From a virus: DNA of 21,000 nt. This document shows positions 270 to 19,340 of this stretch, in pieces. The stretch spans positions 1 to 21,000 of the IMG/VR virus record IMGVR_UViG_3300020465_000114. One strand, given 5' to 3'. How positions within the stretch are numbered: position 1 is the stretch's first letter; the number at the start of each line of letters is the position of its first letter. A program made the translations under genes and the position numbers. A model generated the notes under the pieces. It was not told the origin of the DNA and ran no database searches. It saw nothing but the letters and a program-made list of their open reading frames with translations.

Positions 270-279
270 TATAACAAAT

Positions 280-285: not shown

Positions 286-293
286 AATTATTA

Positions 294-1953: not shown

Positions 1954-1962
1954 CATTAATAC

Positions 1963-2364
1963 GTGCCTATTCAAAGGATTAGTAAAGGATTTCTAGATTT
2001 AAGTGCTAGTTTCCAAAATAACCCTCTCAGCAATGATTTAATTGCGTTAAAAAATGAGAATGCAATTTCACGTTCAGTTCGCAATCTAATATTAACTATA
2101 CAAGGTGAGAGACCTTTTGCTCCTGTACTAGGATCTAATGTCTCGAACCTTTTATTTGATAATATGGATAAATTAACTGCAGCTGCATTGAAAGAAGAGA
2201 TTATTACTACAATAGAAAACTATGAACCACGTGTGGATGTGAATGAAGTAGTATGTAATCCAAATTATGATAATAATGAATATAACGTCACAGTAAAATA
2301 TTATATTGTTGGCATTGATGTGCCAGAACAAGAACTTTCGTTCGCATTAGAACCCACTAGGTAG
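1963..2364 (+). CDS. gp25: Baseplate wedge subunit gp25
   Basis: This is the gp25/TssE-family wedge protein, which sits between the inner baseplate and the sheath and helps trigger sheath contraction. At 133 aa it matches T4 gp25 (132 aa). The family pattern is clear: the MPIQRISKGFLDLSASF start, AISRSVRNLILT, GERPFAPVLGS (about residues 48-58), and the conserved YEPRVDVNEV motif (about residues 87-96) before two C-terminal strands. The start is GTG at 1963; no ATG gives a full-length protein, and cyanophage homologues begin with the same MPIQR. There is no clear Shine-Dalgarno sequence. A late promoter lies 26 bases upstream, and gp6 follows after 4 bases. Confidence 0.95.
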   Translation: MPIQRISKGFLDLSASFQNNPLSNDLIALKNENAISRSVRNLILTIQGERPFAPVLGSNVSNLLFDNMDKLTAAALKEEIITTIENYEPRVDVNEVVCNPNYDNNEYNVTVKYYIVGIDVPEQELSFALEPTR

Positions 2365-2368
2365 ATAA

Positions 2369-4429
2369 ATGCCTTTAGTAAATTTTAGCAACGTCGATTT
2401 TGACCAGATAAAGACCTCAATCAAAGATTATCTTAGATCTAATTCTAATTTCACTGATTATGACTTTGAGGGATCTAATTTATCTGCAATTATTGATACG
2501 CTTGCTTATAACACCTATATTACCTCATATAATGCCAATATGGTAACTAATGAGGTGTTCATTGATTCCGCCACTCTCAGGGAGAATGTGGTATCACTGG
2601 CAAGGAATATAGGTTATGTACCTAGATCCAGAAAGGCAGCAAAAGCATTAGTATCTTTTACTGTTGATTGTACAAATCAAACATCAGTGACGCTGACACT
2701 GAAAGCAGGTATTGTTTTAACAACAGCAAATAAGTTTGGTGGAAGAAATTATACATTTGCTATTCCTGAAGACATTACTGTACCTGTTTTATCTACTGGA
2801 TTTGCTAATTTTGATAATGTTGAGGTATATGAAGGAACTTACATCAATCAGACCTTTACAGTTAGTTCTAGAAACCCAAATCAGAAATATATCCTTCCAA
2901 ATGTAGGAATTGACTCAGATTTGATTAGAGTAATAGTAAAAGATAATGAATTATCATCAGTAAGAGACAAATATCAAAAATTTGATAGTTTATTTAATGT
3001 TAATAAGGATTCTATGGTCTATTTCCTACAAGAAATAGAAAATGAGAGATATGAGGTTATATTTGGTGACGGTGTATTTGGTAAAAAGGTAGAAGAACCT
3101 AATTTTATAGAAGTTAGTTATATTACCTCTAGTGGTTCTGATGCAAATGGTCTACAAAACTTTACTTTCTCTGGAAGACTTATAGATAATGGTGAAACGT
3201 CCATTACTACTGGAATTTCTTTAGTTTATACTGATCAATCCTCTTCAGGAGGTAGTTCTATAGAAAGTATTGAGTCTGTTAAGAAATATGCTCCACAAAT
3301 TTACTCTTCACAGAACCGTGCAGTCACAGCATCTGATTTTGAGGGGTTAGTTCCTAGAATTTATGCTGAAGCAGAGTCAGTCTCTGCATATGGTGGTGAA
3401 GAATTAACACCCCCTAGATATGGTGAAGTGTTTATTAGTGTTAAACCTTATAATGGGGTTTATTTGTCCAGTGCTGTTAAAGATAATATTAAAAATGAGT
3501 TAAGAAAGTACTCTTGTGCTGGAATTATCACTAAAATTCTAGATTTGAAGTATTTGTATGTAGAAACTGATAGTACTGTATATTATGATACAAGTAAAGT
3601 TGCTTCTCCTAACACAGTTAAGAATACTATAGTAGATAATATCACAAATTATGGAAATTCTACCCAATTAAATAAATTTGGAGCTAGATTTAAGTATAGT
3701 AAGTACATTGGAATGATTGATAACAGTCAATCTGCTATTACTTCTAATATCACTACTGTGCATATGAGAAGGGATATGGAACCTGTGTTAAATACTTATA
3801 CAGAATATGAAATTTGTTATGGAAATAGGTTTCATGTAAAGAGTGAGGACGGTTATAACATTAAATCTTCAGGATTTAAGGTTAGTGGTATTAGTGATAT
3901 GGTTTATTTTGGTGATCTTCCAGATAAAAACCTAAAAACAGGAAAAGTTTTCTTATTTAAGTTAAATTCTCCTACACAACCAGTTGTTGTAAAGAAATCA
4001 GTTGGAATTATTGACTATGTTAAGGGTGAAATTAAGTTAAATCCAATAAATTTCATCTCCACTAAGCTTACTAGAGGAGTTACTGGTCAAGAAGTACCAT
4101 TAATTGAAATATCTATGTGTCCTTATTCTAATGATGTTATTGGATTGCAAGATCTTTACTTACAATTAGATGTTGGTAATACAACAGTTACTATGGTTCC
4201 TGATGAAATTACCTCTGGTACTAATACTTCAGGTAGTAGCTATAAAGTAACTTCTAGTTATGCTAATGGACATTTAGTTAGAGGCACTCCTTCATTATCT
4301 ACATCATCTAATGGCACAAATAATGCCACAACAAGTACAAGAACTGTTACATCATCTAACGGTACTAGTACAGCAGGTACAACTAGCACACCTTCCACTA
4401 CTTCTACTGGTAATGGATCTGGATATTAA
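2369..4429 (+). CDS. gp6: Baseplate wedge subunit gp6
   Basis: gp6 forms the ring that joins neighbouring wedges around the T4-type baseplate. The protein has 686 aa, close to T4 gp6 (660). The N-terminal region VDFDQIKTSIKDYLRSN, then LAYNTYITSYNANMV and LRENVVSLARNIGYVPR (about residues 8-89), is typical of the family. A Baseplate_J-like core follows, with FGDGVFGKKV (about residue 231) and GEVFISVKPYNG (about residue 352). Unlike T4 gp6, it ends in a Ser/Thr/Gly/Asn-rich, low-complexity tail from about residue 612 to 686, with the near-repeated units TSSNGTN and TSSNGTS. It starts 4 bases after gp25, with AGGTAG as a weak ribosome site, and the giant gene follows after 6 bases. It should be co-transcribed with gp25. 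Confidence 0.93.
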   Translation: MPLVNFSNVDFDQIKTSIKDYLRSNSNFTDYDFEGSNLSAIIDTLAYNTYITSYNANMVTNEVFIDSATLRENVVSLARNIGYVPRSRKAAKALVSFTVDCTNQTSVTLTLKAGIVLTTANKFGGRNYTFAIPEDITVPVLSTGFANFDNVEVYEGTYINQTFTVSSRNPNQKYILPNVGIDSDLIRVIVKDNELSSVRDKYQKFDSLFNVNKDSMVYFLQEIENERYEVIFGDGVFGKKVEEPNFIEVSYITSSGSDANGLQNFTFSGRLIDNGETSITTGISLVYTDQSSSGGSSIESIESVKKYAPQIYSSQNRAVTASDFEGLVPRIYAEAESVSAYGGEELTPPRYGEVFISVKPYNGVYLSSAVKDNIKNELRKYSCAGIITKILDLKYLYVETDSTVYYDTSKVASPNTVKNTIVDNITNYGNSTQLNKFGARFKYSKYIGMIDNSQSAITSNITTVHMRRDMEPVLNTYTEYEICYGNRFHVKSEDGYNIKSSGFKVSGISDMVYFGDLPDKNLKTGKVFLFKLNSPTQPVVVKKSVGIIDYVKGEIKLNPINFISTKLTRGVTGQEVPLIEISMCPYSNDVIGLQDLYLQLDVGNTTVTMVPDEITSGTNTSGSSYKVTSSYANGHLVRGTPSLSTSSNGTNNATTSTRTVTSSNGTSTAGTTSTPSTTSTGNGSGY

Positions 4430-4435: not shown

Positions 4436-5350
4436 ATGACAATAGATACCAGAATTAAATTTCAGGACATAGTTGAAAATCAACTTCCTCGTTTTGTGAG
4501 GGAAGATTTTCCACTTTTATCCGATTTTTTAAAGAGTTTTTACGTTTCTCAAGAAATTCCTGGTGGACCTTATGATTTAATACAAAATTTAGACCGTTAT
4601 GTGAAAGTTGATGAGTTATTTGCTCTTAAAGACTCAACAATTCTTAACGGTGACTTGAATATGAGTGCTGTTAGCATCAAAGCTGGTGCTGAAGGAAACT
4701 TTACTGTTGGTTTTCCTGAAAATAATGGTCTTATTAAGATAGATGATGAAATAATTACATACGATTATAAAACAGATAGCACTTTTGAGGGGTGTAAAAG
4801 GGGTTTCAGTGGCATTACTTCCTACATTGGGACAAATACACCAGATAAACTAGTATTTTCTCCTTCTGTTGCTGGAATTCACACTTCTGGGTCTCCAATT
4901 CAGAATTTAAACATAGTTTTTCTTCAAGAATTCTTCAAAAAAGTCAAAACACAGTTTGCTCCAGGGTTTACTGATAGAGCTTTTGCTCCAGAAATTGATC
5001 AAAGGAACTTTATTTTTAATTCGGAGAGTTTTTATACCTCAAAAGGTACAGATAATGCCTTTGAAATTCTTTTTAAAGCACTTTATTCTGCAAATGTAGA
5101 AGTTATACATCCAGATCGTTACTTATTCAGACCATCTAATGCAGATTATAAGATAACAAAGGACTTTATTGTTGAAACTATTAGTGGTGATCCTAAAGAA
5201 TTAACTAATTTAACAATAACTCAGAAAGCTACAGGTGCAAGAGGAACAGTTACTAGAGTAGTTCCTATTCTTTATGATAAAGGACAATATCATGAAATCA
5301 GTATAGACTCTGGATTTTCTAGAGATATTAGTGTAAAGGGTACTATTTTT
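4436..5350 (+). other. First half of the split gp7 core
   Basis: These bases encode about residues 1-305. The match to T4 gp7 runs through the short helices (LPRFVREDFPLLSDFL), the FYTSKGTDNAF helix and the ATGARGTVTRV strand pair. In T4 gp7 the next conserved block follows within a few dozen residues; here it comes more than 2,100 residues later. Confidence 0.7.
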
Positions 5351-8300
5351 AACGAATTTGATGTAAATCCTAAAACAAAGATTACAAATGAGATTAGTAT
5401 TGGTACTACTACATTAGATGTTGACTCAACTCTTGGTTTTCCTGATACAGGAAAGCTTATTATGTTGGATGTTGATAATCAACCAGTATCTTTAGCATAT
5501 ACTGGAAAGACAGTTAACCAATTTTTTGATATTACAGGCATTAATAATACATTTCCAGCAGGAACTGATGCTAGAATAGATGATTATTCTTATGCTTATG
5601 TTGGTGTTAATACTACAGAACAAATTCAAGTAAGAATTGGTGCTGCTCTTCAAGATATTGATTTTAAAGAACCTAATTTCTCTTATGAACCAGGTGATGT
5701 TATAAGACTTCAATCACTTGGAGTACAATCTCAGTTAGAAAAAGCAGTTAATTTTATTGGAAATATAAAAACTAAGTGGGAATTAAAAAATATTACACTT
5801 CTTGATGAAGATCAAAGAACATATCAATTTACAACTTGGGACACTCAATATTTAAGAGCAGGACATACCTTCATAATGAAGAGTCGTGATCCTATTCCTG
5901 TAGTGGTTACTGGTTCAGTTACTCAAATTACTTCTCCATATACATTTGAAGTAATCTTATCTAATAATATTTCATTAGTAAAAATTTGGGATCTTGAAAA
6001 TCAAATATTAAAAGGTGATTCTTCAAAATATCCTTATATTAACAATTATATTACTAATGTTCTTAATACTTATGTAAGGACTAGAACTGGTGATGTTTTA
6101 GTTGCTACTAACTCTATTCCATCATATGAGAATAAGGAAATTAATCCTTATGATAGAAAGATATCTTATACTGGTCGTTTAGTCAGTCAGGAAGAAATTC
6201 CTTTGACAACTACTACTGATCATGGATTTTATACTGGAGATACTCTTTATTATAAGGCTGGAGTTACTTTAGTTGTAAGTACCACTTCTGATGGATTAAC
6301 ATTTGAAACTCCAATTGATAGTAGATTTAATAATATAGATGATGGAGTTTATTATGTAAGAAGAGTAGATGCTAATAGAATTAAAATGTCCCGTAGTAAG
6401 GGAAATTTATATAATGACATCTATGTTGAATTTACAGGAGATGTAGAAGATAATTTATTCATATATTATGAATTTAAGGATAAAATATTTGATGCTCAAA
6501 AAACAGTAAGAGCTCTTCTTCCACCAGATAAAAAGAGTGGAAGTTATGTTACGCCTCCTGGATATACAGGTATTTTAAATAATGGCGTAGAGATAATGAA
6601 CTATAAATCTCAAAATAGTACAGTCTACTATGGAGATGTTAGATCATTTGAAGTTAAGAGAGGTGGTTACAATTATGATGTTGTAAATCCTCCTGTTCTC
6701 GTAATTAATGATGATGTTGGAGTTGGAGCAACTGGTACTGTTGCTACTCAAGGTGAATTTGAAAGAATTGAAATACTTAATACTGGATATGACTATGTTG
6801 ATACTCCTGTTGTCTTAATTAGTGGTGGTAATGCTGAAGAGGATGCAGAAGCAGAAGTAAGAACTATTGCAGTTCCTCATGAATTACCTTTTAATGCTGG
6901 TGAAGAATCTAAAGGAAGTAGAGGAGTTGATTTAACTAACAATACTATTGGATTTACTACTTTCCATAAATTTAGAGATGCTGAAGAGATTATCTATGAA
7001 TCTAGGGATTTAGATCGTGTGGTTGGTTTAGTTACACAATCATCTTACTATGTTTCTGTAGTTGATAATTATATTATTAAATTACATAATAAAGAGCAAG
7101 ATGCTATTGAAGGAATTAATGTTGTTGATCTAACTGATTATGGTCAAGGTAGACAATTTATTAAAACGGCTCAATTAAAGAGAATAGTTTCTAGTGTAGA
7201 AATAACTAAGAAAGGAAAAGGATATCAAAATAAGAAAAGAACAATTAGAACTACTGGGATAAGCACTGCTGCTAATACTTTTGCTATTCCTTCACATGGA
7301 TATTTGAATAAAGAAATAGTTCAATATACTGCACCAGAAACTGGAGATTCCGTTACTGGATTATCTTCTAATGATGATTATTATGTTGTTAAGAAGAGTG
7401 AAGATGAATTTGGTCTAAGATTAGTAGGTGTTGGATCTACAGCAAAGGATTATTATTGGAATAATGTTATTCCTGTTGATATAACAAAAGGTGGTGGTGG
7501 ATCATTTAACTATCAACCTATTGTAGCTAGGGTAGAAGGGTCTATAGGGGTCTCTACAAGAGCAGGAGGGCAAGACTTCCAAGCAGTGCTTCAACCTGTT
7601 GTAAGGGGTTTAGTGACCTCTGTAGACCTTACTCAGAATGGAGTAGGGTATGGTGCTTCTGAGATTGTTAATTTCAATAGACAACCTGTAATTACTTTTG
7701 AGAATGGTGAGTTAGCACAAGCAAAACCAGTTATTAATAATGGACAAATAACTTCCATTATGATACAAAATTCTGGTAGAAATTATCATGCACCTCCTGA
7801 TGTTACTATTAAGAGTGCTGATGGTGATTTTGCTCAATTAACTCCTATTATTGATACTGGAAAATTAGTAGAAATTAAAGTTATTAAGGGTGGAGCAGGA
7901 TATGTAAAAGATGAAACTGATATCATTATCAAATCACCTGGAGCAACTGCTCAAGTAGAAGCTACTATTCGTACATGGCAAGTCAACTTATTCCAAAGAA
8001 ACTTTAATAATATTGAAAGTGATGATGGTGTATTGGATGAGAACCTTTCTCATGACAAATTACAATATTCTCATATCTATGTTCCTAGAGCATTAAGAGA
8101 ATCTACTTATGCTATATCTGGGGAAGCAATAGATAATACTCTTTATGGAACACCAGATCTAGTTAAACTGGATGGATCTGAAGTTGCTAGTTCTGAACAT
8201 TCGCCCATATTAGGATGGGCTTATGATGGGCATCCAATATATGGTCCTTATGCATTAACTAATACTGATGGATCTGGATCTATTGGTGAAATGACGTCTG

Positions 8301-11300
8301 GATATGAATTAAAGGTTGGAGATGTTTTAGTAACTGATGCTGTAGATGCAACTAATAGACCTCCTGTTTCTGTATATCCTGCTGGATTCTTTGTAGAAGA
8401 TTTTGTATATACTGGAAATGGAGATTTAGATGAGCATAATGGTAGATTTGCTATAACTCCAGATTATCCAAAAGGAACATATGCTTATCATGCTACTATA
8501 AATGCTCAAAATGATTCTACTGGACCTTTTGAGAATTATAGATCTCCTGCTTTCCCTTATTTCATAGGAAAGAGTTTTAAATCTAAACCAAATCCATTTA
8601 ATTTTAGTATTGAGTCAAATCAAGATGAGTATGATATAGAAACAGGTGAATGGTTAAGAAATACAAGAGATTACCATACTAACTCTGTTAGAAGTGGATA
8701 TGATTATATTTTCAATTCTAATGATGTAAAAGAGCAAACATTAGAAATAACTGAAACCTCTTTGGGACATATTAATAATATAGGAATCACCAGTGGTGGA
8801 ACAAAATATAAGATGGGTGATGAAGTTGAATTTGATAATGCTGGTACTAATGGTAGAAATGCTAATGCAGAGGTTGCTAGAGTTGCTGGTAAAGTAATTG
8901 ATACTGTTAGTCTTGCTACTACTAGTTTTGATAATGTTGAATTTGTTCCTTCTAGAACTTCAACTACATTTGTAGGAGTTACCACTGCTCCTCATAATTT
9001 ATTAAACAGAGATATAGTTAGAATTTCTGGACTTTCTACAAACGTTGGTGGTCTTTCTGCTAGTTATTCTGTAGGGGTTACTAGTGAAGCTTTATCTTTG
9101 ACTGTTGGAATGGCAGCAACAACTAATAGTGGACAAGTAGAATGGGTTAATGTTGGTGGTGCTTTAGGTAATTCATCTTTAAGAGATAATGATATTCTTA
9201 TAGTAGATCAAGAAAAGGTTAAAGTATTAGACATTAATGTAGATGCTGGACAAATTCTTGTTAGAAGAGCACAGAGTGGTACTACAGCAGGGATTCATAG
9301 TAGTAGAGCAATCTTATTTGAAGATCCTAGAACCTTTAGTTTCCAAGTAGCAGGAATATCAACTACTAAGAAATTTAGACTTAATAGACAACAATATTTC
9401 TATCCTGCAGATGTAGTTGGAATGGGAACTGCCAGAGGAACTGCTAGATCTACTGGTTATGGAACAACTATAAGCTTTAGTAGAACTATAGGGTTGGGAT
9501 TGACACAAGTTTGGGTTCCTTCTCAATCTCTCTGGTTTGCTGATCATGGATATCAATTAAATGATGAAGTTGTTTATTCTGCTAATGGTGGTACACCTAT
9601 TAAAGCTTATAGTGGAGTAACTGCAACTCCTTATAGAAATCTTGATACTTATGATAATCTATATGCTGTTCCTCTTGATTCTAATACTATTGGTTTGTCT
9701 ACAGGTAGAGTTGGTCTTGGAAGTGATTCTAATGGTTATTATGTGGGTGTTAATAGTTCACTTGTACCATCTACACTTTACTTCCCTACTCAAACTTTAA
9801 CTGGAGTAGGAAATACTCATAGTCTACTTACTAGACTTACTGATACAATTAGTGGAAAAGTTACTCAAAATGTAGTTACTGTTTCTACAGCTACAACTCA
9901 TATCTTAGAAAAAGATGATACTGTCTTTGTATCTGTAAAACCAATAGGTGTTACTACAGTTACTGTAAAATATAATGATTATAATAGAAGAATAGTTTTT
10001 GACCCTCAAGATTTTGTTGCTGGTGATGTAGATCTCTCTTTAAATACCATTTCTGTAACTGAAGGTGTTTTCAATTTAGGAGATAAAGTAATTCATACTG
10101 CTTCAACTCCATCTGGTGGATTAGTAGATGAGAAAATGTATTATGTTATTTTCTATGATAAGACTAATATTCGTTTGGTTGAAGATAGAATTCAGGTACA
10201 ATCAACAAATCCAAAATTTGTAGATATTACTAGTGCTTCTGCTGGAACTTTATCTAAAGTCAATCCTTCATTATTGGCTAGAAAGAATCAACAGATTAAA
10301 TTTGACTTATCAGATTCTTCTCTATCATTTATTGATAATGGAGAGACATATTCTGCTTTTGACTTAAATTTATATATTAACAGTGAATATACTGATGAAT
10401 TCGTTACTACAGAGAAAAATGATGCTTATGAAGTCCTTAAGACTGGAAGAATTGGTATAGATGCTACAGCAAATCTTCTTTTAACTTTAACTGATGATAT
10501 TCCTAAAAATCTTTTCTATAAGTTTAGTCAGGATAATATTTCTATCATCCCTGATGTAAAGAAACAGATAGTTATTGATACTTTAGTTTCTAATTTTAAT
10601 CAGATTAATATAAGAGCAACATTCTATGATGGTAATTGGAGTGTTAGTGGGGTAGGAGCTACTACTTTCCAATATAACATCCCAAATACTCCAGATGTAA
10701 CTTCATACACTAAAGCTAATTCTAAACCAGTATATGAAACTACTTCTAAAACAGCAGAAGGAGCTATACTTAAATTTAAGGTGAAGAGTGGTGGAGCAAT
10801 GTACAAGATTGCTCCTAGAGTAAGTGGAGTAGGTGCTGGTACTACTGTTAGGTCTGGAATTGGAAGTGGAGCAATTCTTACTGCAGAAACCTCCTCTATA
10901 GGTCAAATTACTAAGACTCGTCTTAATAGTATTGGTTTTGATTATCCTTCAGATAAGACTTTAAAAGTTATTCCTAATCTTCCTGATATTGTAGAAGTAG
11001 AAAGATTGAATACTTTGGGTTCTATTGGTATAACATCTCAAGGAAGGAATTATTTGGTATCACCCGATTTGGTTATTCAAGATGGATATACTAAACAAGT
11101 GTTAAATGATGTTGATCTTGAATATGCTTTAGGTGATACAGAAGTTAGAATAGTAAAAAATACAGAAGGAATCTATGATGTACCTCCAATAATTTTACCA
11201 GTTGGTAACTCTAATGGTGTAGTTATTAGAGATCTTTTGTATAGTAATACTGGTGGTGGTACTTCTACAGGTAAACCTAATACTGTTAGACTTTATATTG

Positions 11301-14300
11301 ATGATGTTTTCCAAGAAGCAGAAGATTTCAATAAAGGTGGATGGTTCCCTGGTGAGAAGTTCATGTTGGAGAATGTGAGCGTTGGTCTAGGAAGTACAGG
11401 TACAGGTTATAATTCAAAAGAATATAATTACCATTTATGGGAAGTAACTGCTGCTAGTGGTCAAATTGGTGGTGCTAATGCATTCATTGAATTTACTTTC
11501 CCTGATGGATTTATTGGTGTTGGAAGAACACCAGGTAAGATGGTTCCTGGTAGGTCATTTGCAAGAGCAATCTTAAAAGAACACTTCCCAGTATATGAAC
11601 CAGTAGTATTAAAACAAAGTGAATTCTTTACTGGAGAAACAGTAGAAGATGAAGTAGGTGCTCAAGGTATTATTCAAAGGTGGGTTCCTGAAAGTAATAC
11701 ACTGACTATTTCTGCTCAACAGGAATTTGATGTAGGGTCTAAAATTAAGGGATTAAGTTCTAGAGTACAAGCATATATTAAAAAGAATGTTAGTTTTGCA
11801 GCAGAAATTGCAACTGGTGCTGGTGCAACAGTAAATCATGGATTCCAATCTGATTCTGGTTTCTTAAACAATAGTTTCCAAAGACTTCCAGATAATGGAT
11901 ATTATCAAAGATTTGCTTATGCTTTAAGATCTCAAGTTCCTATTGATAAATGGGGTGATGATGTAAAAGCATTAAGTCATGTTGCTGGATTTGATAGATG
12001 GTCTGATTTAGAAATTGAAAGTAAAGATCCAGATGCTGTTATTACTAGAACAGAACCTGCTAACTTTGAATTAGTTGCTGAACAGCAATGTTATGGTGAT
12101 GTACAGTCATATCCTGATTTTGATGATGTAAGTGAAATTACAGTTGATGTAGCAGGTCAAATAATCTCTAAAGAAGTTTTATTTGCTAATAGACCTATTA
12201 CTGATTATTATCAGTCTATTGGAAATAGAGCACTTGATATAGATGATTTTAGTGCTACATTTAATGATAGAGAAAGACCTACTAAATTCTCCACTGTTGG
12301 TGAATTTACAGATAATGATGTATTCAATAAAATCTTTACTTTAGTAAAAGATCAAACTTATTCTGATGAAAGACAATTCTCTATTGTTTCTCTTCTTCAG
12401 CATGATAATGTTGCATATATTAATGAGTATGCAACTGTAGAAACATATCCAGAATTAGGAACTTTTGATTATGCTCCTAAGAAAGAAGGTTGGGATTTAA
12501 CTTTTGTTCCTAATAAAAATGAATATAATTTATATGATATTTCTAGTGTTTCTATAAGTGTTAAAGATAATATTGTTGGTGTAGCAAGTACTGCTTTAGG
12601 TGATTCATGTTACTTGGATGATTCTCAAACTAATATTGGTGCTAATGTAAGAAAAAATATTGTTGAATTTGGAGTAGATTATAGAGCTGCTCATATTATG
12701 GTTCAACTTGAAAATAATGTTCAAGAGTTTGTAGGAAGTGAATTTAACCTCATTCATGATGGTACTAAGGTAGCACTTAACCAATATGGAGATCTTACTA
12801 ATAGTCTTTCTCCTGATTCTTTAGATGTTGGGTTTGGAACCTATTATGCTACAATTGAAGGTGGTCATGTTAAATTAGATTTCCATGAAGCAGTAGGTGC
12901 TGCTGTTACAGCAAATGCTTCCTTTATTGCTTTAGAGAAATATGGTTCTGTTGGTGTTGGATCTGTAACTTTAGATATTGGTAGACTTACTTCAAACAAA
13001 CAAACTGTTGGTGTAGGGTCTACTGCTACTCCTATAGCATCTTATGGAACAGATGGTTCTGGATTCGATTTTAAAGCAACTACTGGATATTACTTTGTAT
13101 CTGTAGAGGGTGCTAATGCTGCTTCTACTGGACAGTATGAGTGTTTTGAGGTTGCTGTTTTAAACTCATCATCTAATGTAGTAACTGTTGATTATGCTAA
13201 TGTTGGTCTTAATACTACTAGTTTGGGAACTGTTGATGCTCAATTGGTAGGTGATAGTGTAGATATAACTTATAGTCCTAGAGCTGGTGCTTCTGTCCAT
13301 GTCAAGACCTTTGGTATTGAGATGCAGATTTATGATAATATTCCTTTAGCACCTAGCTTAGATTTAGACAATACAGAATGGTATAGTAAATTTGGTAGAT
13401 ATGTTGGAACTAAATTAGATCTTCAAACTGCATTTAACTTAAAGCATGATGAAAAGCAAATTTTTAGAAGAATATTTGATGGTTCTAGTGATGCTGGAAC
13501 AGGTGGTAATGGAATCAACTTAACTAATAATACTGTTGATATTCCTGATCATTACTTTGTTACAGGAGAAAAGGTTAATTATAGTTACACTGGTTCAAGT
13601 ACTGTTAATGCTGTAGGAATTAAAGCTGCTACCGTTGCTGGAGTAAGCACTACTAAACTTCCTAATGAATTATATGTTGTTAAATTCTCTAATTCTGGAT
13701 TAAGATTTGCTGAAAGTGCTGCTAAAGCTTTACAACAGGTTCCAGAAACATTTGAATTAAATTCAGTTGGTATAGGAACTTCTCATCATATTACTGCTAC
13801 TAATCAGAATTCCAAATCATTAGTAACTATTGATAACATGATTCAGTCTCCTATTGCAGGAACTGCTGTTACTACTGCTTTATCAGCAGCTATAGTATTT
13901 GGACAGAATACTCCTGTAGTTGGAATAACGTCATTTGCCGCTGCGGACTTAGTTAAAATCGACGACGAGATCTGTAAAGTATTAGACGTAGGAGTTAACG
14001 GGAATAATCTAACTTTATTGAGGGGTCAATTAGGAACTCCTGTGGAAGCTCATAGTAATGGATCTGTTATTACTAAGTTAAGTGGAAATTATAATATTGC
14101 ATTAAATACCCTTCATTTTGCTCAAGCACCAAAAGGAAATACTCCTTTAAGTACTACTTCTGACCCAGATGAAACTTCTTGGGTTGGTCTTGTTACTCAT
14201 TCTACTTTCCACGGTAGAATCTTTACTAGAACTGCACCTCCAAGGTCTACCAAAGAAACTTATACTACTAATGCAGTTTTTAATGATATTTCAGATCAAT

Positions 14301-17134
14301 TTACTGGAATTCAAAGTGCTTTCTCCCTTACAACTGGATATGGTAGCAGTGAAACTAATGCTTTAGGATTCTCTACTTATAATGGAGTACTCTTGATCAA
14401 TGATATGTTCCAAGAACCTGCAAGTACTGAGCAAGGAAATTATAGTTTTGGAGAAGGAAGTGGTATTACTACTGTTACATTTACTGGTGAAGAAACATCT
14501 CTTGCAGCATATCGTAGACCAACTGATACTGTTTTAGGTGAGAATGCAAATAGGACTAATTATCCTAATGGTGGTAAGATTCTTTCTGTTGGATCTACTG
14601 GAGGATTGGGTTATCAACCTTTAGTTGCTGCTGGTGGTACTGCTATTGTTTCTGGTGTTGGAACTATTACTTCTATTAGTATAGGTAATACTGGTTCTGG
14701 ATATAGATCTGGAATCCAGACTACAGTTAATGTGGGAGTTCAGACTTATGGTGTAGGTATAGCAAGTTACGTTTCTATTGGTACTGCTGCTATTAGTGGT
14801 GGTCATATAGTAAGTATTGCTGTTACTAATCCTGGAATTGGATATACTTATTATCCTATTGATTCTACAACATTCATGACTGCTGCTGGTGCTGCAGGAA
14901 CTACAATTATAGGGGTTGCTGATACTAGTAGAATCACTACAGGGTCTATAATTTCTATTGCTCAAACTACTAATTCATCAACTACCAGTAAAGTAACTCT
15001 AATTGCTAATGTTTCTGTAGTTAGTGTTGGTCAAAGTCAGTTTACTATTGGTACAGGAGACACTATTAGTTCTGCAATAGGTATTGGAACTACTACTGCT
15101 GCACCAGTGGTTACTATTAAGAGTTTTGATCCACCTGAAGTAGTAATTGATTCACCACTAAATTACACTAACATTCCTTTGATATATGATCCTAATTCTA
15201 CTACTGGAGCAGGACAAAGTGCATCTGTAGATTTTGTTGTTGGAATGGGTGGTAGTGTAGTTGACTTTAAAGTTAAGAGAGAAGGATTTGGATATGGTAA
15301 TGGTGAAATATTAACTGTTGCTACTGGTGGAGCAACTGGAATTCCTACTACAAGTTCTACCAGTCATATAGATTTTGAACTTACAGTGCAAAAGATTCAT
15401 ACTGATGAATTCTCTGGATGGCATTTTGGACAACTTGAAGCATTAGATAATTTTAGTACTGATTTGGATGGATTTAGAACAGTCTTCCAGATGAAGGTAA
15501 GTAATAAACCTGTTTCACTTAAAACTGCTCCTGGATGGAATGTAAGTCCAGTTCATTCTTTATTAGTATTTGTTAATGGTCTTCTTCAAGAACCAGGATA
15601 CGCATATAACTTGGGTAGTGGTGGAAGTTCTATTGTATTCTCAACTGCTCCTAATGCTGATGATTATATACATGTTCTTTTCTATAAAGGAACTCCTGGA
15701 ATAGATGTAGCACTATTAAATGTTGCTAAAACTATTAAGAAGGGAGATCAAATAGATATTCAGAATAATCCAGAGAAATTATTTAATGGATATCCTCAAG
15801 GACCAGGATTAAATCAAGAACCAAGAATTATTGTAGGAATTACATCATTAAGTTCTGATAGTGTAACCACTACTCCATATAATGGAATAGGAATAAGCAC
15901 TGATATAAGCTTATTAAGACCTTCTAATTGGAGAAAACAAACTAGTGATTTAATTGTTAATAATAGACCTGTTGGAAAAGATAGGGTTGAATTAGAGGCA
16001 GATATATTCCCTACTGCTTTTGCTATACAACCTATAGGAGCAGGTACTACGTATGTTTATGTTGATACAGTTAGACCTTTCTTTAATCAATATAATGAAC
16101 AGTCTGCTAGTAGAGATACCTTACAAGACTTTATTAATATAGCTGAACAAGATGATAAATTACCAGGAATTGCAACTGCTATAGTTTCTGATACTGGAAC
16201 TGTTAGTTCTATTGATTTAACTAATATTGGAGTTGGATATACAGCAGTTCCTACACTTACTTTCTCTCCTCCTCCAGAAGGTGGTAGTTTTGTTACAGCA
16301 ACTGCTACTTGTACTGTAGGTGCTGCTGGAACCATAACATCAGTAACAGTTACTAATGCTGGAACTGGATATACTACTACAAATCCACCTGTTCTAGAAA
16401 TTGCTGCTCCTCAAGCAGTAAAAGAAGTTAAAGTGGATGTAGATGCTTATGAAGGTGATTTTGGAACTATAGTTGGATTTGGTACAACTACTACAAGTGG
16501 AAAACCTCAAATTATCTTTGATTTCTATATTCCAGATGGTTCTCCTTTGAGAGATGTTGCTTCTGGTGGAACTGGACCTGTTTCTGCTGCTACTACAGTT
16601 AGTGGTATTACTACTGGAGATTTCTTCACTGCAAATAATACTAATTACACATTTGGAGATGGAACTCTAGAAACTAGAAAGACAGATAGTACTATTAAAG
16701 TTGGTGCTACTACATCTTTCTTAGATTGTGTATATCAAGTTGCTAGTGCTGAAACTGTAACTGTAACCAATGCTTCAATTGGTGCTACTGGTATTAACGG
16801 ACCATTTACTGGTCTTACTACAGATGTAAGAAGAGTCTTCTGTAATATTGCTGGTATTGGTACAGAGAACTTCTCTTCTACATACTTTAAATTTGATCAA
16901 AATAAAACTGGTGTAGGAACAGTTACATTTGATACTCAAAATATTACCACATACTCTGGTACTATTACTGTTTCTCCTAACTTAGGTCACTTTAGTTGGG
17001 GTAAGATTACAGTACAAAGAAAAGAAGGTAACACATTTACCTATTATGGTGATAATGGGATTAGTGGTTTATCTACTTCAACAGTGATTACTAGATATAA
17101 TCCACTGAAAATGAAAGAGTATGTTATTTCATAA
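4436..17134 (+). CDS. gp7: Giant gp7-like baseplate wedge protein, 4,232 aa
   Basis: This uninterrupted gene fills the T4 gene 7 position between gp6 and gp8. Residues 1 to about 305 resemble the C-terminal third of T4 gp7: PRFVREDFPLLSDFLKSFY; FYTSKGTDNAFEILFKALY (about 198-216; T4 has FYSTKGIEASYKFLFKVLY); and ITQKATGARGTVTRV. The T4 region that follows directly reappears only at about 2489-2522 (YYQRFAYALRSQVPIDKW, then HVAGFDRW; T4 has SYYVMKIKSNLPSSRWKSDV). Between them lie GxGY repeats, HGFxTGDxVxY-type repeats and a YHYH-like domain (about 1255-1385). The remaining 1,700 residues hold further repeats, an IDDE to LLRGQLGT module (about 3165-3205) and NGLLQEP-type modules. I see no signal peptide or membrane segment. 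The large N-terminal part of T4 gp7 is not recognisable. There is no Shine-Dalgarno sequence. The gp7 relationship is from recalled T4 sequence and position; the functions of the insertions are unknown. Confidence 0.85.
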   Translation: MTIDTRIKFQDIVENQLPRFVREDFPLLSDFLKSFYVSQEIPGGPYDLIQNLDRYVKVDELFALKDSTILNGDLNMSAVSIKAGAEGNFTVGFPENNGLIKIDDEIITYDYKTDSTFEGCKRGFSGITSYIGTNTPDKLVFSPSVAGIHTSGSPIQNLNIVFLQEFFKKVKTQFAPGFTDRAFAPEIDQRNFIFNSESFYTSKGTDNAFEILFKALYSANVEVIHPDRYLFRPSNADYKITKDFIVETISGDPKELTNLTITQKATGARGTVTRVVPILYDKGQYHEISIDSGFSRDISVKGTIFNEFDVNPKTKITNEISIGTTTLDVDSTLGFPDTGKLIMLDVDNQPVSLAYTGKTVNQFFDITGINNTFPAGTDARIDDYSYAYVGVNTTEQIQVRIGAALQDIDFKEPNFSYEPGDVIRLQSLGVQSQLEKAVNFIGNIKTKWELKNITLLDEDQRTYQFTTWDTQYLRAGHTFIMKSRDPIPVVVTGSVTQITSPYTFEVILSNNISLVKIWDLENQILKGDSSKYPYINNYITNVLNTYVRTRTGDVLVATNSIPSYENKEINPYDRKISYTGRLVSQEEIPLTTTTDHGFYTGDTLYYKAGVTLVVSTTSDGLTFETPIDSRFNNIDDGVYYVRRVDANRIKMSRSKGNLYNDIYVEFTGDVEDNLFIYYEFKDKIFDAQKTVRALLPPDKKSGSYVTPPGYTGILNNGVEIMNYKSQNSTVYYGDVRSFEVKRGGYNYDVVNPPVLVINDDVGVGATGTVATQGEFERIEILNTGYDYVDTPVVLISGGNAEEDAEAEVRTIAVPHELPFNAGEESKGSRGVDLTNNTIGFTTFHKFRDAEEIIYESRDLDRVVGLVTQSSYYVSVVDNYIIKLHNKEQDAIEGINVVDLTDYGQGRQFIKTAQLKRIVSSVEITKKGKGYQNKKRTIRTTGISTAANTFAIPSHGYLNKEIVQYTAPETGDSVTGLSSNDDYYVVKKSEDEFGLRLVGVGSTAKDYYWNNVIPVDITKGGGGSFNYQPIVARVEGSIGVSTRAGGQDFQAVLQPVVRGLVTSVDLTQNGVGYGASEIVNFNRQPVITFENGELAQAKPVINNGQITSIMIQNSGRNYHAPPDVTIKSADGDFAQLTPIIDTGKLVEIKVIKGGAGYVKDETDIIIKSPGATAQVEATIRTWQVNLFQRNFNNIESDDGVLDENLSHDKLQYSHIYVPRALRESTYAISGEAIDNTLYGTPDLVKLDGSEVASSEHSPILGWAYDGHPIYGPYALTNTDGSGSIGEMTSGYELKVGDVLVTDAVDATNRPPVSVYPAGFFVEDFVYTGNGDLDEHNGRFAITPDYPKGTYAYHATINAQNDSTGPFENYRSPAFPYFIGKSFKSKPNPFNFSIESNQDEYDIETGEWLRNTRDYHTNSVRSGYDYIFNSNDVKEQTLEITETSLGHINNIGITSGGTKYKMGDEVEFDNAGTNGRNANAEVARVAGKVIDTVSLATTSFDNVEFVPSRTSTTFVGVTTAPHNLLNRDIVRISGLSTNVGGLSASYSVGVTSEALSLTVGMAATTNSGQVEWVNVGGALGNSSLRDNDILIVDQEKVKVLDINVDAGQILVRRAQSGTTAGIHSSRAILFEDPRTFSFQVAGISTTKKFRLNRQQYFYPADVVGMGTARGTARSTGYGTTISFSRTIGLGLTQVWVPSQSLWFADHGYQLNDEVVYSANGGTPIKAYSGVTATPYRNLDTYDNLYAVPLDSNTIGLSTGRVGLGSDSNGYYVGVNSSLVPSTLYFPTQTLTGVGNTHSLLTRLTDTISGKVTQNVVTVSTATTHILEKDDTVFVSVKPIGVTTVTVKYNDYNRRIVFDPQDFVAGDVDLSLNTISVTEGVFNLGDKVIHTASTPSGGLVDEKMYYVIFYDKTNIRLVEDRIQVQSTNPKFVDITSASAGTLSKVNPSLLARKNQQIKFDLSDSSLSFIDNGETYSAFDLNLYINSEYTDEFVTTEKNDAYEVLKTGRIGIDATANLLLTLTDDIPKNLFYKFSQDNISIIPDVKKQIVIDTLVSNFNQINIRATFYDGNWSVSGVGATTFQYNIPNTPDVTSYTKANSKPVYETTSKTAEGAILKFKVKSGGAMYKIAPRVSGVGAGTTVRSGIGSGAILTAETSSIGQITKTRLNSIGFDYPSDKTLKVIPNLPDIVEVERLNTLGSIGITSQGRNYLVSPDLVIQDGYTKQVLNDVDLEYALGDTEVRIVKNTEGIYDVPPIILPVGNSNGVVIRDLLYSNTGGGTSTGKPNTVRLYIDDVFQEAEDFNKGGWFPGEKFMLENVSVGLGSTGTGYNSKEYNYHLWEVTAASGQIGGANAFIEFTFPDGFIGVGRTPGKMVPGRSFARAILKEHFPVYEPVVLKQSEFFTGETVEDEVGAQGIIQRWVPESNTLTISAQQEFDVGSKIKGLSSRVQAYIKKNVSFAAEIATGAGATVNHGFQSDSGFLNNSFQRLPDNGYYQRFAYALRSQVPIDKWGDDVKALSHVAGFDRWSDLEIESKDPDAVITRTEPANFELVAEQQCYGDVQSYPDFDDVSEITVDVAGQIISKEVLFANRPITDYYQSIGNRALDIDDFSATFNDRERPTKFSTVGEFTDNDVFNKIFTLVKDQTYSDERQFSIVSLLQHDNVAYINEYATVETYPELGTFDYAPKKEGWDLTFVPNKNEYNLYDISSVSISVKDNIVGVASTALGDSCYLDDSQTNIGANVRKNIVEFGVDYRAAHIMVQLENNVQEFVGSEFNLIHDGTKVALNQYGDLTNSLSPDSLDVGFGTYYATIEGGHVKLDFHEAVGAAVTANASFIALEKYGSVGVGSVTLDIGRLTSNKQTVGVGSTATPIASYGTDGSGFDFKATTGYYFVSVEGANAASTGQYECFEVAVLNSSSNVVTVDYANVGLNTTSLGTVDAQLVGDSVDITYSPRAGASVHVKTFGIEMQIYDNIPLAPSLDLDNTEWYSKFGRYVGTKLDLQTAFNLKHDEKQIFRRIFDGSSDAGTGGNGINLTNNTVDIPDHYFVTGEKVNYSYTGSSTVNAVGIKAATVAGVSTTKLPNELYVVKFSNSGLRFAESAAKALQQVPETFELNSVGIGTSHHITATNQNSKSLVTIDNMIQSPIAGTAVTTALSAAIVFGQNTPVVGITSFAAADLVKIDDEICKVLDVGVNGNNLTLLRGQLGTPVEAHSNGSVITKLSGNYNIALNTLHFAQAPKGNTPLSTTSDPDETSWVGLVTHSTFHGRIFTRTAPPRSTKETYTTNAVFNDISDQFTGIQSAFSLTTGYGSSETNALGFSTYNGVLLINDMFQEPASTEQGNYSFGEGSGITTVTFTGEETSLAAYRRPTDTVLGENANRTNYPNGGKILSVGSTGGLGYQPLVAAGGTAIVSGVGTITSISIGNTGSGYRSGIQTTVNVGVQTYGVGIASYVSIGTAAISGGHIVSIAVTNPGIGYTYYPIDSTTFMTAAGAAGTTIIGVADTSRITTGSIISIAQTTNSSTTSKVTLIANVSVVSVGQSQFTIGTGDTISSAIGIGTTTAAPVVTIKSFDPPEVVIDSPLNYTNIPLIYDPNSTTGAGQSASVDFVVGMGGSVVDFKVKREGFGYGNGEILTVATGGATGIPTTSSTSHIDFELTVQKIHTDEFSGWHFGQLEALDNFSTDLDGFRTVFQMKVSNKPVSLKTAPGWNVSPVHSLLVFVNGLLQEPGYAYNLGSGGSSIVFSTAPNADDYIHVLFYKGTPGIDVALLNVAKTIKKGDQIDIQNNPEKLFNGYPQGPGLNQEPRIIVGITSLSSDSVTTTPYNGIGISTDISLLRPSNWRKQTSDLIVNNRPVGKDRVELEADIFPTAFAIQPIGAGTTYVYVDTVRPFFNQYNEQSASRDTLQDFINIAEQDDKLPGIATAIVSDTGTVSSIDLTNIGVGYTAVPTLTFSPPPEGGSFVTATATCTVGAAGTITSVTVTNAGTGYTTTNPPVLEIAAPQAVKEVKVDVDAYEGDFGTIVGFGTTTTSGKPQIIFDFYIPDGSPLRDVASGGTGPVSAATTVSGITTGDFFTANNTNYTFGDGTLETRKTDSTIKVGATTSFLDCVYQVASAETVTVTNASIGATGINGPFTGLTTDVRRVFCNIAGIGTENFSSTYFKFDQNKTGVGTVTFDTQNITTYSGTITVSPNLGHFSWGKITVQRKEGNTFTYYGDNGISGLSTSTVITRYNPLKMKEYVIS
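8198..8590 (+). other. YHYH-like domain inside the giant protein
   Basis: About residues 1255-1385 read HSPILGWAYDGHPIYGPYAL, then DLDEHNGRFAITPDYPKGT, TYAYHATI and FPYFIGKSF. This order (GWxxDGxPIYGPY, LDExNGR, TYAYHATI, FPYxxG) is that of the YHYH protein family (Pfam YHYH), found in many secreted bacterial proteins and marine phage proteins. Its biochemical role is not established. The His residues (H1266, H1334 and H1352) are conspicuous. Confidence 0.7.
11600..12010 (+). other. Second half of the split gp7 core
   Basis: About residues 2390-2525 contain VVLKQSEFFTGETVEDEVGA, then YYQRFAYALRSQVPIDKW (from about 2489) and VKALSHVAGFDRW. The last two match the T4 gp7 segment of Tyr-Tyr, Ser-x-Leu-Pro, Arg-Trp and His-Pro-x-Gly-Phe that precedes its C-terminal end. 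Locally the codons are of the same AT-rich type as the flanking repeats. Confidence 0.65.
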
Positions 17135-17168: not shown

Positions 17169-19340
17169 ATGGCGAAACAAGGAATTAGTACTGGATCAAG
17201 TCCGAATGACGGAACAGGTGATAGCCTCTTAGCTGGTGCCGTTAAAGTTAATGAAAACTTTGATGAGGTTTATGGTAAACTGGGTGATGGGACAAGTTTA
17301 TTTGTAGGAATTGTTAGTTCTATTGCTGTTGATGGTGCTCTGAGTATATCAACCTCCTTTGGTGCTCCTACTATTACAGGAACTGCTAATACAGCAGTAA
17401 TTAACTCAAGACAGATTTTTAGTGCAGGTATAGTTACTTTTGCTACTGATGCTAAGATAAGTGGAATTAATACTTTTTCAAGTGCTGGATATGATGTAGC
17501 AGGTATTATAACTGCTCAAAATGTAATTTTATATGATACTGCAAAGATTGCTGGTATTACTACTATTAATTCTTTTGGAGTTAATGTTGGTGGTGCAGTA
17601 ACAGCAAATTCTTTAGCAGTTAGAGATACTGGAGATGGTTCATATGTTGGTCTAAACACAGTCAGTATTGATAATACAGGTATTGCTGCAACTGCAATCA
17701 GTATTACTGATACAGCAACTTTAGTCACTATACAAAATAGTGGTACTGCTAATCTAGCAACAGCAAATATTAATAGTGGAATAATTACATCTGCTGTAAT
17801 TGGTGCTGGAATCACAATGAATTCCAGTGGTATTGATTTTGCTTCTTCTACTGGTATTGCTACAATATCTCTATTAAAAGGAAATGTAGAAGGTAATGTA
17901 ACTGGTAATGTAACTGGTACTGCTTCTAATGCTACTCTTGCTGCTAATGCTCAAGGATTGCAGGGTACTCCTAATATTGTTGTTGCAAGTATTTCATGTA
18001 GTGGTAGTGCTTTAAATGCTAACTTTACCACTGGTATTGCTACTGCATCTGCATTTAAAGTTGGTACTAATCAAGTTATTAGTAGTGCAAGACAATTACA
18101 AAATATTGCTTCTTTAGATACTACAACCAGAGATACAATTGAGGCTGCTATAGAAGCAGGTCCAAATGACTTTACAGATATAAATGTTTCTGGTTTAGGT
18201 ACTGTTGGAACTCTTTATGTTCCTGGAACTGTTAGAGGACTGAATATAAGTGGTGTTACAACTGGATTAACTGTATCTGGTGTTACTACTGTTGGTATTG
18301 TAACTGGTGCTACATCACTTCAAGTTACTGATGTTTATTCTAACTTCTACTTTGGTGATATAACTAATGTAAGTGGTAAACCAACATTATCTAAAGCTAT
18401 AATTGGTACTGGTGTTACCATAGATCAAGGTAATATTGATGCTGGATCTTATGTTGGAATTATTACTGCAAAAGAATTTCATGGTGATGGATCAAATTTA
18501 ACTAATGTAACCTCATCTGCTACAGCAATAACATTAGCTGATGAGTCAACTGATACCTCATGTTTCCCTGTATTTGCTACTGGAGCAACAGGTAGTTTAG
18601 GACCTAAAACAGGTACAAACCTTACATTTAATTCAGCATCAGGTGCATTAACTGCTACATCTTTTGTTGGTGCTGTAACTGGTAATGTAACTGGTAATGC
18701 ATCTGGTTCATCTGGATCTTGTACTGGTAATGCTGCAACTGCAACACTTGCTACTACTGCCCAGGCATTAACTGCAGCAACTATTAATCTTAATGGTAAT
18801 ACCCTTGGGTTAAATCTAACAGGTATTCAGACAGGATTAAATGTTACTGGAGTTGGAACTATTACCACTTTTGGTAGTACAACAGCAACTTTAACTACTG
18901 CTAATATAACTACTGCTAATGTTGGATCTGCTGTAACAAGTAGTTCTACTGGTATTGTAGTTGGTGCTGGTAAATCTTACACAGGTGACTCATCTAGGGT
19001 TGTTAGTGGAAGATGGATACTGGGTGCTAATGGTACTAGTGATTATACCTTTACTGGTGTTGGACTCACTGTTACTGAAAATGATCCAGATTTATACCTT
19101 GCAAGAGGTAATACCTATGAATTTGTAAATGCATCTGGTGGTCATCCATTTAGGATTCAGAGCACTACTAATGGATCTACTGGTGCTGCTTATGGTTCTG
19201 GTGTTATAAACAATGATGGTGGTAATGGTTCAACTATTACCTTTGAAGTACCATTTAATGCTCCTGATACACTCTATTATCAGTGTACAGCACATACTGG
19301 AATGGGTGGAACTATCTTTGTCTACCCAGCTCTTAGATAA
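17169..19340 (+). CDS. Fibre-like virion protein with C-terminal cupredoxin domain, 723 aa
   Basis: This is probably a tail or baseplate fibre-like structural protein. The N-terminus (SPNDGTGDSLLAGAVKVNENFDEVY) matches a module I recall at the start of many cyanophage structural proteins. The middle is Gly/Thr/Ser/Ala-rich beta sequence with FHGDGSNLTNV (about residue 437) and ADESTDTSCFPVF (about 457). Two related GNVTGN stretches each run into ATLA...AQ (about residues 240-265 and 500-530). The C-terminal 100 residues or so form a plastocyanin-like domain: DLYLARGNTYEFVN, GGHPFRI (H659) and YYQCTAHTGMGG (C706, H709, M712). These are the four ligands of a type-1 copper site, in amicyanin-like CxxHxxM spacing. 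It sits between gp7 and gp8, where T4 has no gene, and has its own late promoter but no clear Shine-Dalgarno sequence. Whether copper is bound is not known. Confidence 0.8.
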   Translation: MAKQGISTGSSPNDGTGDSLLAGAVKVNENFDEVYGKLGDGTSLFVGIVSSIAVDGALSISTSFGAPTITGTANTAVINSRQIFSAGIVTFATDAKISGINTFSSAGYDVAGIITAQNVILYDTAKIAGITTINSFGVNVGGAVTANSLAVRDTGDGSYVGLNTVSIDNTGIAATAISITDTATLVTIQNSGTANLATANINSGIITSAVIGAGITMNSSGIDFASSTGIATISLLKGNVEGNVTGNVTGTASNATLAANAQGLQGTPNIVVASISCSGSALNANFTTGIATASAFKVGTNQVISSARQLQNIASLDTTTRDTIEAAIEAGPNDFTDINVSGLGTVGTLYVPGTVRGLNISGVTTGLTVSGVTTVGIVTGATSLQVTDVYSNFYFGDITNVSGKPTLSKAIIGTGVTIDQGNIDAGSYVGIITAKEFHGDGSNLTNVTSSATAITLADESTDTSCFPVFATGATGSLGPKTGTNLTFNSASGALTATSFVGAVTGNVTGNASGSSGSCTGNAATATLATTAQALTAATINLNGNTLGLNLTGIQTGLNVTGVGTITTFGSTTATLTTANITTANVGSAVTSSSTGIVVGAGKSYTGDSSRVVSGRWILGANGTSDYTFTGVGLTVTENDPDLYLARGNTYEFVNASGGHPFRIQSTTNGSTGAAYGSGVINNDGGNGSTITFEVPFNAPDTLYYQCTAHTGMGGTIFVYPALR
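17901..18696 (+). repeat. Identical 19-base direct repeat in the fibre gene
   Basis: ACTGGTAATGTAACTGGTA occurs at 17901-17919 and at 18678-18696, in the same reading frame, encoding TGNVTG. In both places the downstream protein reads NAT or AAT, then ATLA and AQ, so the 19 bases belong to a longer, diverged duplication of a GNVTGN module. Such repeats in fibre genes can recombine and change fibre length. Confidence 0.6.
19044..19337 (+). other. Cupredoxin domain with complete type-1 copper ligands
   Basis: About residues 626-723 of the fibre-like protein show the order strand, GGHPF, an acidic and Gly-rich loop, ITFEVPFNAPDTLYYQC, then HTGMGG. The His659, Cys706, His709 and Met712 set corresponds to the His-Cys-His-Met ligands of plastocyanin-type proteins. 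The Cys-to-Met spacing of six residues is that of amicyanin. Confidence 0.72.

Follow-up and report, generated by a model that had tools for sequence, protein, structure and literature searches.

A 4,232-residue gp7-type baseplate wedge protein of a T4-like cyanophage, with a conserved core probably split by a giant insert

Giant proteins annotated as the baseplate wedge protein gp7 are already on record in S-SM2 (4,156 aa), P-HM2 (4,454 aa) and P-SSM2 (5,195 aa), and the ACG-2014d homologue, named virion structural protein, is larger (6,817 aa) than the 4,232-aa protein described here. Neither this gene nor its giant size is new: the family was annotated before, and our protein is not its largest member. 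The closest annotated relative that we found is the putative baseplate wedge initiator of Prochlorococcus phage P-TIM68 (4,307 aa, phrog_2885), which has a like architecture, without visible difference, and is 80% identical in the first of two conserved blocks (block 1) and 67.5% in the insert that separates it from the second (block 2). T4 gp7 (PDB 5IV5, 5HX2) also carries the FYxxKG helix, the beta region and block 2 in like order, in the slot after gp6, but it has N-terminal domains of its own (~650 residues), only ~50 residues between the blocks (814 to 862) against ~2,150 in the 4,232-aa protein, and no counterpart of the 1,670-aa C-terminal extension of the latter.

In the accessible part of Sullivan et al. 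(PMC3037559), gp7, gp10 and gp12 are listed as non-cyanophage core genes, divergent and in up to nine clusters. The accessible text of PMC7029224 (2020) has T4 gp7 absent from pelagi- and cyanomyophages, with VrlC as its substitute. A minimal form is known from Vibrio phage XM1, whose gp7 ortholog (gp17, 242 aa) we liken to ours by the description in the accessible part of PMC10457771: it has a core-bundle helix pair and two unresolved stretches (80-106, 201-242) that hold tail spikes. We found no description of a gp7 split by an insert in the accessible portions of the open-access literature on cyanophage baseplates, gp7, VrlC and virion proteomes, and no mention of such an architecture in those of PMC2984593 and PMC5587285. 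The A-1(L) tail paper (PMC10966104) was considered as a precedent and dismissed as irrelevant, since the gp7 of its accessible part is a neck protein.

We analysed a window of 21,000 nucleotides (positions 1 to 21,000 of IMG/VR virus record IMGVR_UViG_3300020465_000114), in which the following features were assigned, with the evidence in brackets:

1963..2364, + strand: gp25, context (profile searches)
2369..4429, + strand: gp6, context (profile searches)
4436..17134, + strand: gp7-type baseplate wedge protein, 4,232 aa, 458 kDa (phrog_2885, E 0)
4436..4621, + strand: N-terminal helical segment of core-bundle type, residues 1-62 (alignment A2, HMM 'hth')
4631..4909, + strand: small inserted beta module of DEI...RG type, residues ~66-158 (HTH-to-KG gap)
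4910..5362, + strand: block 1, FYxxKG helix and following strands, residues ~159-309, homologous to T4 gp7 ~726-814 (profiles, fold)
5363..5587, + strand: second small beta-barrel module, within the gp7 beta domain, residues ~310-384 (structural match only)
5588..5647, + strand: strands with which the gp7 domain may continue (to T4 ~841), residues ~385-404 (structural match only)
5648..11800, + strand: giant insert, residues ~405-2455, about 225 kDa (profiles, joined profile)
8033..8506, + strand: degenerate YHYH-type domain (PF14240), residues 1200-1357 (Pfam, 93.6 bits)
11801..12115, + strand: block 2 (YYQxFxY...W...H..GF), residues ~2456-2560, homologous to T4 gp7 862-891 (profiles)
12116..17131, + strand: C-terminal extension, residues ~2561-4232, separable from the insert (comparison with S-CREM2 and S-SSM7)
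12275..12529, + strand: domain best matching the C-terminal domain of T4 gp9, residues ~2614-2698 (model, borderline)
17169..19340, + strand: gp9/gp10-type fibre connector with a possible C-terminal cupredoxin-like domain, context (profile searches)
19373..20944, + strand: gp8, context (profile searches)

The 4,232-aa protein is encoded by a single frame (4436-17134, + strand) with no stop inside, and its best stretch in a profile search against phrog_2885 ('baseplate wedge subunit', 4,179 positions) ran from residues 1-3451 to positions 4-3370 (E 0, two stretches). The local gene order is CP12-like protein, gp25, gp6, the 4,232-aa protein, gp9/gp10-type fibre connector and gp8; the T4-type order gp25-gp6-gp7-(..)-gp8 is thus present, with the fibre-connector gene between gp7 and gp8. 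P-TIM68 has the same order (CP12, two baseplate wedge genes, the 4,307-aa putative initiator, a hypothetical gene, a baseplate wedge gene). The source is a P-TIM68-like marine phage with a cyanobacterial host, and the 4,232-aa protein occupies the gp25-gp6-gp7 slot. Directly upstream of the baseplate genes lies the CP12-domain protein (1504-1767; PF02672, E 5.4e-8); CP12 is a host carbon-metabolism regulator that many cyanophages carry. The fibre connector (17169-19340) has a cupredoxin-like end at residues ~640-720 (Pfam Copper-bind E 0.029, under the cut-off), whose GHPF...C-T-A-H-T-G-M pattern we take to resemble type-1 copper ligands.

The relation of the N-terminal region to gp7 was assessed by profiles and by structure prediction. 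With hhalign, using 15 cyanophage-type sequences for block 1 and 12 for block 2 against five T4-branch gp7 sequences, residues 191-291 aligned to T4 726-814 (probability 96.5, E 9.3e-10). The block 1 HMM scored 27.4 bits on T4 gp7, against 3.2 for the best of 200 shuffled T4 gp7 sequences. An alignment of 11 sequences (A2), which includes Xanthomonas phage X1 and the Desulfovibrio phage and leaves T4 out, retrieved T4-type gp7 from the whole PDB at 7.1e-8 and 1.3e-5; these were the sole hits below E 0.01, and the next, at 0.03, was unrelated. The whole 4,232-aa protein run against the PDB by phmmer gave nothing below E 0.88. An AlphaFold2 model of residues 1-440 reached a mean pLDDT of 67 (middling confidence), and residues 1-62 were modelled poorly alone (39-51). 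The top two Foldseek hits of the model were T4 and Klebsiella phage baseplate chains of 1,004 and 1,031 residues (E 4.7e-4 and 6.6e-4, probability 0.80 and 0.66, low global TM of 0.13 and 0.12), which are taken, by their length, to be gp7. VIA-align placed model residues 230..404 on 761..841 of gp7 (5hx2_A; Z 8.7, rmsd 2.1, 81 residues) at rank 4, where it was outranked by two barrels that cover residues 311-383 of the model (Z 10.8 and 9.6) and by one portal-tail chain, GP4 (Z 8.9, rmsd 7.2). Since the barrel matches at 311-383, a segment that resembles EF-Tu-type and phage-tail barrels, fall inside the 230..404 match, a separate barrel appears to lie within the gp7-like range. The beta module at ~66-158 is missing in T4, X1 and the Desulfovibrio phage, and the HTH-to-KG gap is 122 in the 4,232-aa protein versus 22-25 in the shortest relatives.

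The same site is enlarged in ACG-2014d (L008 17207-37660) and P-SSM4 (L019 17264-38558), where this gap is 634 and 626 versus ~120, and related-looking modules of the DEI...RG type recur in our protein at residues 72-126, 322-372, ~1591-1627 and ~3176-3212. Gp7-type proteins are matched by PHROG families 3465, 460, 4406, 701 and 19630, whose labels, 'head closure Hc2' or 'head and packaging virion structural protein', look misleading.

These data bear on the view, printed in the accessible text of PMC7029224, that gp7 was lost in cyanophages and pelagiphages and VrlC took its place, so that the 4,232-aa protein would be another structural protein of chance similarity. The gene is indeed annotated merely as 'structural protein' in several records. 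The gp7 matches by profile, synteny and fold speak against it, as does a separate VrlC gene directly after gp8 in S-SM2, P-HM2 and Mosig, and we regard it as highly improbable. We also considered VrlC as a gp7 homologue and rejected this, there being no meaningful core match: in six VrlC-type proteins (two full, four cut; identified by an annotation such as VrlC or virulence-associated, or by their position), the best score with the gp7 core HMMs was E 0.012, 4.3 bits, in the beta part.

Block 2 is recognized by the pattern R/K-S...P...W...H..GF downstream of block 1 and is weak against T4 alone. It aligned by hhalign to T4 862-891 of the gp7 family with probability 65 and E 6e-5; with another alignment the match of block 2 by itself was weaker, at probability 18 and E 0.0013. 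Its profile scored 13.0 bits on T4 gp7 (E 1e-3, and E 0.024 in another search), and against the PDB it retrieved no gp7 and a single hit, an unrelated maturase at E 0.041. A fold search with the region gave nothing at E<=0.001 and, on a second look, no gp7 among the rows listed. Block 2 holds invariant residues and was modelled, without block 1, at pLDDT ~35, while most of its surroundings reached 75-93; a poor alignment may be the cause of the low value. Because block 2 alone matches T4 weakly, what ties it to gp7 is the order of the blocks, the joined profile and the existence of bridging proteins. The protein of Desulfovibrio phage 7757, found by the C-terminal part of T4 gp7 (tblastn, E 1e-3), hits both phrog_964, the T4 gp7 family (8-209 to 644-830, E 4e-6), and phrog_2885 (231-299 to 2398-2467, E 4.8e-20), so that this compact protein bridges both ends.

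When the two blocks were joined in natural order, the hhalign score rose to 91.5 (E 8e-12) over T4 646-889, compared with 76.9 for block 1 alone, 76.7 with the order reversed and 76.9-78.3 for block 1 plus any of six random insert segments. Leaving out residues 385-405 gave 94.4 (E 3e-12). Sequence profiles thus do not confirm residues 385-404 as a gp7 continuation, and since the joined profile gains nothing from them, that boundary is set by the structural match only. Compact relatives (frames of 391-587 aa) hold both blocks 56-68 residues apart, a nearly empty state. The preliminary description had placed conserved blocks at residues 1-305 and ~2489-2522, and there they lie, inside the open 4,232-aa frame. 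It had also proposed that they are nearly adjacent in T4 gp7; the separate profiles agree, both matching gp7 at neighbouring, non-overlapping places (726-814 and 862-891) and not the same segment. Duplication of one gp7 segment was discarded, as none of 144 proteins (among the matches listed) holds either block twice at E<0.01.

The idea of an insertion inside a conserved domain was supported, with a refinement. The giant insert is there; its length is ~2,050 residues if the gp7 domain is taken to end where the structural match does (~404), or ~2,145 counted from 305. It seems to be one of three extra pieces in the core: a beta module at ~66-158, a second one at ~310-384, and the giant insert itself (~405-2455), the second module and the insert start (~405) being placed by structural match only. 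Judged by the sequence comparisons, the gp7 core is kept (N-terminal helices, FYxxKG helix, beta region and block 2), with a beta module before the FYxxKG helix, ~2,050-2,150 residues between blocks 1 and 2, and ~1,670 after block 2, close to the ~1,700 of the preliminary description. The model suggests that the core is opened at T4-equivalent residues ~841-862.

That the N-terminal two thirds of T4 gp7 cannot be recognized in this protein, as noted earlier, was confirmed: T4 1-640 gave a best E of 0.3 among 22 reference proteins, X1 and Desulfovibrio phage 7757 included. Since the T4 N-terminal domains are also missing in these two compact forms, their absence from the 4,232-aa protein need not be a loss. 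By its profile matches the protein is gp7-type and outside the T4 branch (phrog_964), and the T4 N-terminal domains are apparently a feature of that branch, not of gp7 at large. A gain of several megadaltons by the baseplate, expected in the preliminary description, proved too high: at 458 kDa versus 119 kDa for T4 gp7, six copies (the number assumed from T4) give only about +2.0 MDa over T4.

We then compared the distance from the FYxxKG block to block 2 across relatives. The sample comprised the 144 proteins that carry both blocks (E<0.01 for block 2), made up of 21/23 named references and 123/160 IMG/VR frames; T4 gp7 (block 2 E 0.024) and S-SSM7b were the references left out, and the other 37/160 frames were either cut on the 5' side (34) or uncut yet without a block 1 match (3). 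Three frames, L087, L101 and L168, have block 2 without a block 1 match and an uncut 5' side; a split gene, a frameshift or divergence is possible in them. Among the matches listed, the blocks stood in forward order in 144/144 and in reverse in 0/144, and the gap ranged from 56 to 2,787 residues: below 100 in 8 proteins, 151-813 in 37, 1,398-1,754 in 32, 2,104-2,312 in 65 and 2,767-2,787 in 2. These class sizes are not frequencies, the IMG/VR frames being the best 80 of at least 449 plus the best 80 of at least 557 confirmed matches. The 4,232-aa protein has a gap of 2,198. Both blocks are found in like order in Desulfovibrio phage 7757 (587-aa frame, gap 65), Xanthomonas phage X1 (498 aa, gap 220), Pelagibacter phage Mosig (874 aa, gap 330) and Melnitz-1 (896 aa, gap 349), and in X1, Mosig and Melnitz-1 the gp7 gene is preceded by two genes whose annotation reads baseplate wedge or J protein. 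In later records outside the 144, the gap was 57 in Ochrobactrum phage OC, 508 in Caulobacter phage Cr30 and 1,605 in S-CREM2.

Size classes clustered on a quickly built tree of the joined core with 140 rows: the six classes needed 8 changes, against a minimum of 5 and a shuffled mean of 67.3, and 0/200 shuffles were as low; the tree is midpoint-rooted for drawing only, 45/134 of its inner branches are open, its deep forks are weak and long branches meet. Window-by-window profiles, built from an alignment of 37/50 complete proteins of the 2,100-2,330 class, were run on the 45 short (gap under 1,000) and 32 middle forms. Residues 151-300 and 2401-2550 matched all of both (45/45 and 32/32). The segments 1051-1200, 1351-1500 and 2101-2250 matched 32/32 middle forms, in order in 32/32, and 22, 25 and 14 of the 45 short ones; residues 601-750 matched 31/32 middle and 0/45 short forms, and the YHYH stretch (1201-1350) 32/32 and 0/45. 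Residues 901-1050, 1651-1800, 1951-2100 and 2251-2400 matched no middle and no short form, and 1801-1950 matched 2/32 middle forms. We considered, and rejected, that the insert of the short forms has a collinear origin: 13/45 were hit by all three repeat-rich segments, in non-overlapping order in 0/13 versus 32/32 middle forms. As these hits are never ordered, only the same kind of repeat is common to short and large forms. Middle and large inserts, on these profile matches, have a common collinear frame, the large ones with extra inner segments, and growth of the insert is the simpler reading compared with loss in the middle forms.

The reverse course, with the large form ancestral and the insert deleted in T4, X1, the Desulfovibrio phage and others, draws on the same data, since segments found in large but not in middle forms could equally be losses and the tree has an arbitrary root and weak deep forks. 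The short forms, however, are scattered over several tree branches and occur in Desulfovibrio, Xanthomonas, Ochrobactrum, Caulobacter, Pelagibacter and Methylophilales phages, and in Vibrio phage XM1 the ortholog is minimal, with 242 residues (PMC10457771, accessible part), so we consider deletion unlikely and prefer growth.

The only Pfam domain recognized in the insert is of the YHYH type. Searches showed it in gp7 of 8/8 cyanophages and did not find it in the records of Melnitz-1, Mosig and T4. A comparative study (PMC7824862, accessible part) describes YHYH as a predicted metal-dependent hydrolase with three histidines and an aspartate. Compared with the stand-alone YHYH protein of ACG-2014d, the gp7 copies keep His121 in 0/65, His131 in 2/63 and His167 in 66/66; Asp176 is kept in 66/66, but the motif used for picking the copies contains it. 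The YHYH-motif segment is missing or changed in the gp7 insert and its two histidines (121, 131) are gone, so that a binding or structural role is, from these alignments, more likely than catalysis. TYAYH/TYAYF at residue ~1350 was tried as the YHYH motif and rejected, because the alignment with a stand-alone YHYH protein puts the motif earlier, in the lost segment. In ACG-2014d (L008 37683-38471) a separate full-motif YHYH protein (142 bits) follows directly after gp7, whose own inner copy is degenerate. Short motifs in our protein were counted against 200 shuffles: the HG..GD type occurs 5 times (shuffle mean 0.09, maximum 2), the DEI type 3 times (0.02, maximum 1), the YYV type 4 times (0.46, maximum 3) and the G-Y-P type 10 times (2.3, maximum 8), counts that are biased, since the regular expressions were made after viewing the protein.

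The C-terminal extension is separable from the insert. S-CREM2 gp122 (1,937 aa) resembles our protein in having both blocks (FYxxKG block 181-237, block 2 1847-1931) with a ~1,600-aa gap and, according to the accessible part of PMC10665884, was detected in virions; it differs in stopping 6 residues past the block 2 match, without the extension. In S-SSM7, counterparts of residues 3196-3452 and 3571-3944 are found in a second gene past the connector gene. This record (L013 19001-38095) has two genes named gp7 with the connector gene between them, the second matching mainly the C-terminal extension. Within the extension, the model of residues ~2614-2698 matched the C-terminal domain of T4 gp9 (Z 8.2, rmsd 2.9, 84 residues, Foldseek E 0.011) and also a tailspike domain (Z 7.2).

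The preliminary description had read selection over the whole length from the open frame, and the comparison with P-TIM68 bears this out, with rough dN/dS ratios (dS of 0.7-1.4 is high) of about 0.10 in block 1 (dN 0.144, dS 1.415), 0.25 in the insert (0.249, 0.995), 0.23 in block 2 (0.171, 0.734) and 0.28 in the C-terminal extension (0.281, 0.990). By this measure the insert is under purifying selection and all parts of the protein are constrained. In the S-CREM2 virions, gp122 was represented by 91 unique peptides and 27.2% coverage (PMC10665884, accessible part); 27.2% of 1,937 aa amounts to ~527 residues, and since only ~391 lie outside the insert, peptides of the insert would be present in virions if coverage refers to the full length. 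This argues, on the same assumption, against a post-translational cut that would leave the insert outside the mature wedge, while a cut piece that stays bound would still be compatible with it. Such cutting, for which the separate gene for part of the extension in S-SSM7 could be cited, we hold to be quite unlikely.

Profile searches, in each of which the T4 control was positive, covered ten related records, namely Melnitz-1, Mosig and eight cyanophages, including one from a reservoir. They found gp11 in 0/10, full-length gp10 in 0/10, with fragments that span no more than 107 of 606 positions in 6/10, and gp12 in 0/10 except for a weak partial match in P-SSM2; absence of gp10-gp12 by profile is not proof of replacement. 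The 4,232-aa protein probably serves a T4-like cyanophage as its gp7 wedge scaffold, with its core split by the insert and the insert looping out as a peripheral, host-facing arm. By analogy with T4, the core chain would run through the wedge, one gp7 with two gp6, and blocks 1 and 2 would meet within it. The insert would leave the beta region as a long outward arm, and arm and C-terminal extension together would form a peripheral host-facing layer in the role of T4 gp10, gp11 and gp12 and may relay the binding signal to the gp6-gp7 ring. More tentatively, the wedge initiator could have absorbed the peripheral baseplate, its insert and C-terminal extension (the gp9-like domain included) replacing gp10, gp11 and gp12, a step that is possible and that we would not expect to hold; if true, host sensing and wedge opening would lie in one polypeptide. 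The insert might also serve to enlarge the baseplate as a spacer or scaffold, with host contact absent. The loss of the YHYH-motif segment from its sole recognized Pfam domain fits such a role, and the binding of tail spikes by stretches 80-106 and 201-242 of the XM1 ortholog (PMC10457771, accessible part) goes against it; we find it rather doubtful and retain the host-facing arm as our reading.

The profile, joined-profile and VrlC comparisons contradict, at the level of sequence, the claim of gp7 absence in the accessible text of PMC7029224, and a printed statement on missing gp7 in cyano- and pelagimyophages is thereby corrected. They also supply a rule for spotting gp7 in these phages, namely two blocks far apart. 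Since PHROG families labelled 'head and packaging' or 'head closure' match the 4,232-aa protein, marine phage annotation can be improved. In our sample, this core assembly protein ranges from 391-residue frames to more than 6,800 residues, with much of the length added inside a conserved domain, and the replacement of the T4 peripheral baseplate in cyano- and pelagimyophages becomes a directly testable question.
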